Below, piece by piece: positions 30,649 to 31,530 of a DNA stretch of 64,000 nt (position 1 is the stretch's first letter; every line of letters begins with the position of its first letter). The stretch lies in NCBI GenBank assembly GCA_937873515.1, contig CALMYB010000007.1, positions 124,001 through 188,000 on the forward strand. The letters run 5' to 3'. The notes under the pieces were generated by a model, which saw only the letters and a program-made list of their open reading frames with translations, was not told where the DNA came from and did no database searches. This DNA is from an uncultured Acidobacteriota bacterium (GTDB taxonomy: Bacteria; Acidobacteriota; Blastocatellia; Pyrinomonadales; Pyrinomonadaceae). A program made the translations under genes and the position numbers.

Positions 30649-31530
30649 TCAAGATTTCCGAGCACTGCGGCTCGCCGCGGCCGGCCAGAGCCCTGAGTAA
30701 ACGAATTCCGCGCTTCCGGTGATGACGACCTCATCGTCAGCAGTGCGCCAGTCGACCTTTGTAATGCCGCCAGGCGAATGGACATCGACCTTCCGTTCGG
30801 TCTTGAGCTGAAGAGCGGACAAGACAGCGGCTCCGACGGAACAAGTGCCCGATGCTGACGTTTCTCCGGCACCGCGTTCCCAAATACGGATCTCGACATT
30901 ATGACGATCGACAACACGGACAAATACCATGTTAACCCTACTCGGGAAACGCTCGTGGCTTTCGATCCGCGGCCCGATCGCACGCCAATCGAGTTCGAAA
31001 TCCGGCACGAACATACAGGCGACCGGATTGCCGACGTTGACCGCAGATATCGTTAGCGTAGAATCGCCGACCAAGATAGGTTCGTTGACCACGGCATCAA
31101 CTTCTCTTGCCGTGATCATCGGGATCTCGCTGCTGGAAAACTTCGGTCTGCCGATCTCGGACGCAAAATCAAATTTGACATCGTTGTCGTTCTTCAAGAG
31201 AACAAAGCTCTTGATGCCGGACCTAGTTCTAAGACGCAGATTCTCGCCCGTGGATCGGCCGGCCTTGACCAAATGTGCGGCGGCGCAACGAGTGCCGTTG
31301 CCGGAAAACGTTGCGATCGAACCGTCGGGATTTATGATCTCGCAGTCATAGTCGGCGATGTCGCCGTCAAGCTTCGACAAAAGGGCGACACCGTCAGCAC
31401 CGGCTCCGGTGTGACGATCGCATATCGCCCTTACGAATTGCGATGTATCTTTCCCGATCGCGGGAGTACGTTCAAGGACGATGTAATCGTTCTCAAAACC
31501 GTGAAATTTGGTAAAAGGGATATCCGTCAT
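30649..31530 (-). CDS. DapF-family protein lacking both catalytic cysteines
   Basis: From ATG 31530 the protein is 293 residues and aligns along the diaminopimelate epimerase family: FTKFHGFENDYIVLE at the N-terminus, NPDGSIATFSGNGTRCAAAHL, NVGNPVACMFV and WERGAGETSASGTCSVGAA. In authentic DapF the first catalytic cysteine precedes GNG (QCGNG) and the second sits in ACG[ST]G. Here both positions are serine (FSGNG and ASGT); a cysteine occurs three residues after the second site. The reading is clear on the DNA (TCC and TCG codons). DapF converts LL- to meso-diaminopimelate for lysine and peptidoglycan. This homologue may have another reaction, as Cys/Ser changes in the related proline racemase family alter activity. 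An upstream TTG start is unlikely. Confidence 0.8.
   Translation of the reverse strand: MTDIPFTKFHGFENDYIVLERTPAIGKDTSQFVRAICDRHTGAGADGVALLSKLDGDIADYDCEIINPDGSIATFSGNGTRCAAAHLVKAGRSTGENLRLRTRSGIKSFVLLKNDNDVKFDFASEIGRPKFSSSEIPMITAREVDAVVNEPILVGDSTLTISAVNVGNPVACMFVPDFELDWRAIGPRIESHERFPSRVNMVFVRVVDRHNVEIRIWERGAGETSASGTCSVGAAVLSALQLKTERKVDVHSPGGITKVDWRTADDEVVITGSAEFVYSGLWPAAASRSARKS

Follow-up and report, generated by a model that had tools for sequence, protein, structure and literature searches.

A stretch of 64,000 nucleotides of Acidobacteriota DNA (the window; its genome is designated G000) encodes a homologue of the diaminopimelate (DAP) epimerase DapF in which both catalytic cysteines are replaced by serine. 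DapF supplies a building block of the bacterial cell wall and ordinarily relies on its cysteine pair. This Ser/Ser DapF is a real, phylum-scale variant, for which neither a description nor an assay of the natural form was found in print among openly licensed PMC papers. From sequence comparison and a structural model, we predict that the window protein is the LL/meso-DAP epimerase of the cell, with Ser76 and Ser227 acting as the bases instead of two Cys residues, and we put the probability of this reading at about 60%. The catalysis of cofactor-independent racemases is ascribed to cysteine thiolates. The present analysis suggests that serine is able to do chemistry thought to need sulphur.

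A DapF homologue with two active-site serines

The gene is an open reading frame on the minus strand, with an ATG start codon at 31530. The gene and its motifs are located in the window as follows.

30649..31530, minus strand: dapF homologue of 293 aa, Ser/Ser form, identified by its TIGR00652 and PF01678 scores, its model and its PDB fold matches
31294..31308, minus strand: first catalytic motif FSGNG, residues 75-79 (F75-S76-G77-N78-G79), in which Ser76 replaces the catalytic Cys
30859..30879, minus strand: ERGAGET block, residues 218-224, intact; in the alignment, Glu218 and Arg219 correspond to the residues binding DAP's distal amino acid
30841..30855, minus strand: second catalytic motif ASGTC, residues 226-230 (A226-S227-G228-T229-C230), in which Ser227 replaces the catalytic Cys

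In profile searches, the protein scored 205 bits with the DapF model TIGR00652, whose cut-off is 114.65, and 146 bits with PF01678 (DAP_epimerase) of Pfam. Scores were under the cut-off with the model of the histidine racemase CntK (12.5 bits; cut-off 300) and with bifunc_DapF, the model of the bifunctional DapF/glutamate racemase of the Chlamydia type (58.9 bits; cut-off 350). The proline racemase family proper (t3HypD-like dehydratase) was rejected, since Pfam gave DAP_epimerase alone at E <= 1 and proline racemase structures ranked under the DapFs. A phmmer alignment placed the catalytic Cys residues of solved DapFs on S76 and S227. The codon of Ser76 is TCC (31303-31305), and that of Ser227 is TCG (30850-30852), which is two substitutions away from any Cys codon. 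The window protein therefore lacks the two catalytic cysteines expected of a DapF. Because both were looked for and are absent, and activity is only predicted, we do not class the Ser/Ser protein as a proven DAP epimerase.

The original prediction stated that both catalytic cysteines had become serine and that the remaining active site, including the ERGAGET block, was kept, and both statements were confirmed. It had named Cys codons as a finding that would overturn it; the codons read as Ser, and related genomes agree. An assembly or sequencing error was rejected, since the same Ser pair occurs across many independent genomes, and for the same reason the pair is not due to chance.

An AlphaFold model of the window protein had a mean pLDDT of 94.6. 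Its best PDB match was 9mro_A (TM 0.84/0.88), with the DapF fold of two pseudo-symmetric domains, and its best 26 PDB matches were all DapF or O-ureidoserine racemase. In the model, Ser76 directly precedes helix 77-89, and Ser227 directly precedes helix 228-240. The available part of a report on Anabaena DapF (PMC12039745) describes residues that contact DAP and hold both of its ends. By alignment, Asn13, Asn66, Asn164, Asn197, Glu215 and Arg216 of that enzyme correspond to N14, N67, N168, N200, E218 and R219 of the window protein, and Gly76, Asn77, Gly225 and Thr226 to G77, N78, G228 and T229. These residues are kept well beyond the window's own order. In the Ser/Ser set from beyond this order, N14, N67, G77, N78, N200, E218, R219 and G228 were present in 100% and N168 in 99%, and residue 229 was Thr or Ser.

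Two second-shell positions shift together with the serine pair. Residue 85 changes from Lys/Arg to Ala (90% of the Ser/Ser sequences from beyond the order), and residue 216 changes from Val/Thr to mostly Phe/Ile. Other polar gains were Ser226 and Ser231, and outside the order also Thr252. The conservation comparison found no replacement base (His, Lys, Asp, Glu or Tyr) gained by the Ser/Ser set.

Spread and evolution of the Ser/Ser form

We found a DapF match in 108 of the 119 genomes of the window's order. Matches from 5 of these 108 genomes were left out of the reading, and the other 103 gave 105 loci, of which 102 had Ser at both sites and 3 were fragments with Ser at the sole site that they held. 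Elsewhere in the class, DapF was matched in 41 of 43 genomes, and every locus read was Ser/Ser (38/38). A phylum-wide sample gave a DapF match in 386 of 395 genomes. The family counts of this sample rest on 252 rows read and 71 family codes, and of these 71 families, 43 had the Ser/Ser form only, 22 Cys/Cys only and 4 Cys/Ser only, and 2 were mixed. A comparison of 301 distinct sequences comprised 211 Ser/Ser, 82 Cys/Cys and 8 Cys/Ser sequences, with no Ser/Cys DapF among them. The Ser/Ser relatives place in Acidobacteriota (Pyrinomonadaceae, Blastocatellia, Aminicenantes and Bryobacterales). Hydrogenedentota, Poribacteria and Zixibacteria had Cys/Ser DapF, and the other phyla named in the relatives' records had Cys/Cys; three sequences from records without a phylum (L172, L175 and L197) were Ser/Ser.

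The natural Cys/Ser DapFs, with Cys at the first site and Ser at the second, were L181, L209, L205, L196, L264, L279, L286 and L293. Besides the three phyla above, this form also occurred in four families of the sampled phylum. Family f33 was split, with Cys/Cys in some genomes and Ser/Ser in others (L144, L149, L153, L157 and L161 versus L320 and L321).

Both sites were Ser in all 103 sequences of the set drawn from the window's family and order. Within the order, the codons at Ser76 and at Ser227 each included all four TCN codons and AGC. Since both codons vary only synonymously while Ser is found at both sites in 103/103 sequences, codon usage shows purifying selection holding Ser at both sites, and serine is actively kept. 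Nothing was found in favour of a decaying pseudogene or of an error in assembly or sequencing. The related genomes refute such a reading: open reading frames with the Ser pair occur in 211 distinct sequences, single-contig genomes are among those with such frames, and Ser is kept by synonymous codons. We give this explanation practically no weight.

A tree built from 73 sequences requires 4 changes to explain the Ser/Ser state, gains and losses counted together, and well-supported branches force at least 3 of them. A single clade for all Ser/Ser sequences was rejected by the AU test (p-AU 0.008), a result compatible with repeated gains as well as with a single gain followed by reversals. In the best tree, a branch with support 54/73 separated the 37 Ser/Ser rows of the main set from all others, which fits one origin of this set and also several. 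Ser/Ser L197 grouped with Cys/Ser L196 (support 100/99), and Ser/Ser L278 grouped with Cys/Ser L279 and L286 (support 94/83). Because a Ser/Ser sequence twice neighbours Cys/Ser ones on the tree, we infer that the second Cys was lost first.

Genomes of family f28 carry the Cys/Cys form, the Ser/Ser form or both. The DapF loci of this family were L315/L388 and L408 (G447), L390 and L409 (G329), and L392 (G408). Where the Ser/Ser form co-occurs, the Cys/Cys homologue is divergent, and the f28 Ser/Ser form is a separate lineage on the tree. This pattern fits the replacement of one form by the other and also two functions, so the forms need not always be interchangeable.

The DAP pathway and gene neighbourhoods

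DapL produces LL-DAP, so that DapF is still required after it, and only Ddh bypasses DapF. The original prediction called for a search for a second dapF or ddh. In G000, we found a single DapF match at E <= 10 and no Ddh match at E <= 0.001. The prediction had also offered dapL as another DAP route, and from general pathway knowledge it would not bypass DapF. A gene cluster of G000 encodes DapB (147 bits), DapA (328 bits) and a DapD-like succinyltransferase (PRK11830, 299 bits), each over its cut-off. Within this cluster (L369:7539-12483), dapB and dapA are separated by a TrpF-like gene, and the dapD-like gene is preceded by one that looks P1-peptidase-like by eye. A deacylase of the ArgE/DapE family near the cluster scored 145 bits, under the cut-off of 217.6, and is assigned at the family level only.

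LysA acts on meso-DAP. The LysA-like protein of G000 (L368:7135-8529) scored 327 bits with the LysA model (cut-off 297.9) and 354 bits with the ornithine/lysine decarboxylase model DokD, whose cut-off is 700. Because it scores higher with DokD, we are less confident of lysine synthesis in G000 than of DAP synthesis. LysA was over the cut-off in 31 of 37 Ser/Ser genomes. Ddh was over the cut-off in none of these 37, versus 1 of the 3 Cys/Cys genomes tested. MurE was over the cut-off in all 40 genomes, and the 36 MurE loci read from them, G000 included, all had TSDNPR. According to the accessible excerpt of PMC3681970, the DNPR MurE of Verrucomicrobium spinosum prefers meso-DAP over LL-DAP by >100-fold. 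The pathway context of a DapF, namely DapA, DapB, an LL-DAP branch, a DAP-type MurE and the lack of Ddh, was thus found in G000. As judged from its genes, LL-DAP can be made in this genome, and meso-DAP is probably needed there. Since DapA, DapB, a DapD-like enzyme and a DNPR MurE are present and no second DapF or Ddh was found, no protein other than the Ser/Ser one is visible as a candidate for converting LL-DAP to meso-DAP.

Not all Ser/Ser genomes gave so complete a pathway. Of the 37, 27 had DapB over the cut-off, 1 had a weak match and 9 had no match at E <= 1e-5. In seven Ser/Ser genomes besides the Chloracidobacterium-like ones (G132, G154, G222, G333, G166, G475 and G444), no DapB match was seen and the DapA-family matches were all under the DapA cut-off, which hints at an unrecognised DapB or another source of DAP. 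Three Chloracidobacterium-like genomes (G119, G124 and G125) had no match to DapA (E <= 1e-20) or DapB_C (E <= 0.01). The Ser/Ser DapF is kept in them (L128, L131 and L113, respectively); this observation on the Chloracidobacterium-like genomes also draws on the loci L371, L372 and L373. The genome of C. validum (G125) has LysA at 406 bits together with the Ser/Ser DapF and a DNPR MurE, and the MurE of G119 is also DNPR. The available part of PMC12816986 describes C. validum as an auxotroph that requires lysine. Searches of openly licensed PMC papers gave no measured wall diamino acid for Acidobacteriota, nor did the accessible portions of PMC5900883, PMC3570800, PMC4148992, PMC3174227, PMC4644332, PMC12935467 or PMC7203096.

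We also surveyed the genes next to dapF. The cultured heterotroph Terriglobus saanensis (G481) has DapA and DapB, and its sole DapF is Ser/Ser; the gene touches that of an S66 LD-carboxypeptidase. In G192, dapF overlaps an LD-carboxypeptidase gene, which is followed in the same row by Mpl (417 bits; cut-off 388.7). Mpl is the ligase that recycles the meso-DAP tripeptide. In the wider survey, 10 of 49 loci were dropped (DapF frame unrecognised), and 64 of the 78 immediate neighbours were scanned. These 64 included 4 LD-carboxypeptidases and 2 S13 D-Ala-D-Ala carboxypeptidases; PfkB kinases (6) and trypsin/PDZ proteases (6) were commoner. A wall-gene context is thus real in some lineages and is not general, and the window's own neighbours give no hint of the function of its dapF. 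The neighbourhoods of L388 and L392 in family f28 had no Pfam match, and none of the aminotransferases beside L196 and L197 passed the cut-off of an LL-DAP aminotransferase model.

Proposed catalysis by a serine pair and alternative readings

In the mechanism that we propose, LL-DAP would bind where the two domains meet. Asn67, Asn168, Asn200, Glu218 and Arg219 would hold its distal L-amino acid, and the two central helices would bind its proximal carboxylate with their N-termini. With the pocket closed and desolvated, main-chain NH groups and the helix dipole would lower the pKa of one Ser hydroxyl. This Ser would abstract the alpha-proton, and the other would protonate the opposite face, giving meso-DAP. 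The available part of PMC12039745 attributes the lowered thiol pKa in DapF to helix dipoles and main-chain NH groups, and both would be expected to remain in the Ser/Ser form. It also states that Cys-to-Ser DapF mutants are made because catalysis is hindered. The DapF of C. glutamicum is inactivated by a disulfide between its two cysteines, as described in the accessible part of PMC5296763. By analogy, a thiol-free pair would be immune to such inactivation, which may be a selective reason for it.

An alternative reading is that a DAP-like compound is the substrate of the Ser/Ser protein but undergoes another reaction, such as an elimination, a one-sided exchange or the epimerisation of another bis-amino acid (e.g. 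lanthionine), with meso-DAP made by an unknown route or unused. The original prediction leaned this way, holding that Cys/Ser or Cys/Thr changes in the proline racemase family turn epimerases into dehydratases. In the portion of PMC4113996 available, Ser/Thr (trans-3-hydroxyproline) and Cys/Thr members are indeed dehydratases, but the Ser/Cys 4-hydroxyproline 2-epimerase works, so Ser alone does not predict dehydration. Because Ser serves at one position in both an epimerase and a dehydratase of this superfamily, we infer that a two-base Ser/Ser epimerase would be unusual but chemically continuous with known enzymes. Another reaction would agree with the eliminations carried out by Cys-to-Ser glutamate racemases (PMC8142540), with the Chloracidobacterium-like genomes that hold a Ser/Ser DapF without DapA/DapB, even where LysA and a DNPR MurE are present (G125), and with the ability of f28 genomes to hold both forms. 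However, the whole DAP pocket is conserved, distal-centre contacts included, and the protein is the sole DapF candidate of G000, where DapA, DapB and a DapD-like enzyme are also present and no Ddh was found. In T. saanensis and G192, the gene has a muropeptide-recycling gene as its neighbour, and the Ser/Ser pair prevails in most of the families read in the phylum sample. The step from a Ser pair to another reaction was thus not supported, and we consider this reading unlikely.

Peptidoglycan might also be built directly from LL-DAP. In that case, the Ser/Ser protein would have no catalytic activity and would be retained for binding or regulation. LL-DAP walls occur in other bacteria, and E. 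coli DapF has a non-enzymatic partner, seen in the RppH-DapF complexes in the PDB. In the accessible part of PMC11602996, engineered Cys-to-Ser mutants of a histidine racemase with the DapF fold had greatly reduced turnover. However, the near-exact conservation of the substrate contacts and of both Ser residues is unexpected in a dead enzyme, most Ser/Ser genomes have LysA, a user of meso-DAP, and the DNPR MurE discriminated strongly against LL-DAP in the excerpt of PMC3681970 cited above. This reading appears quite improbable to us. If another residue, e.g. Cys230 or Cys82, had taken over catalysis, the enzyme would still be thiol-based. Cys230 is near Ser227 in the window protein, three residues past it, and Cys82 is frequent in the Ser/Ser set. 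However, Cys230 was present in 80% of the window's family and in 1% of Ser/Ser sequences outside that family, and Cys82 and Cys37 are frequent in Cys/Cys enzymes too. A substitute catalytic cysteine was ruled out by these conservation patterns, and we hold a takeover to be highly improbable. The points that count against a working epimerase are the crippled Cys-to-Ser mutants, the lack of a newly gained base, the Ser/Ser genomes with a weak DapB match or none, the Chloracidobacterium-like genomes that keep the gene without DapA/DapB, and the f28 genomes that hold both forms.

The reading of the Ser/Ser protein as a DAP epimerase can be drawn more broadly. It may be a thiol-free, two-base, cofactor-independent epimerase with a Ser pair in place of the thiol-thiolate. 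Such an enzyme would dominate among the DapFs of most Acidobacteriota families read and would have arisen more than once by way of Cys/Cys, Cys/Ser and Ser/Ser, with residues 85 and 216 retuned; it may also benefit from being immune to thiol oxidation. We regard this broader picture as evenly poised between right and wrong. If the Ser/Ser DapF works across much of a major soil phylum, the fold, not sulphur, would carry most of the catalysis. The thiolate requirement would then be directly testable, and insensitivity to thiol-directed DapF inhibitors would be predicted; covalent inhibitors such as aziridino-DAP react with the catalytic thiols. If the protein does something else, then an unknown enzyme makes the meso-DAP of many of these bacteria. 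In either case, automatic DapF annotations in these bacteria rest on a residue pair for which openly licensed PMC papers gave no assay.

Compared with DapF (TIGR00652; 9mro, 3ejx and 1gqz), the window protein has the same fold, length, profile score, DAP contacts and catalytic positions at helix ends, whereas its pair is Ser/Ser and residues 85 and 216 are changed in the Ser/Ser set. The C73S and C217S mutants of DapF (PDB 2q9h and 2q9j), which we take to be those of H. influenzae DapF, carry the identical substitutions one at a time. They are single mutants made in the laboratory, whereas the natural Ser/Ser form has both together and is the norm of many families. O-ureidoserine racemase and PddB are presumably DapF-fold racemases with a Cys/Cys pair. 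As far as the available part of PMC4113996 describes them, the Ser/Cys 4-hydroxyproline 2-epimerase and the Ser/Thr dehydratase share with the window protein a natural Ser at the first catalytic position and a related fold, but have Cys or Thr at the second position and act on other substrates. HisR and CntK, in the accessible part of PMC11602996, have the same fold and two-base layout, but with a Cys/Cys pair and other substrates.
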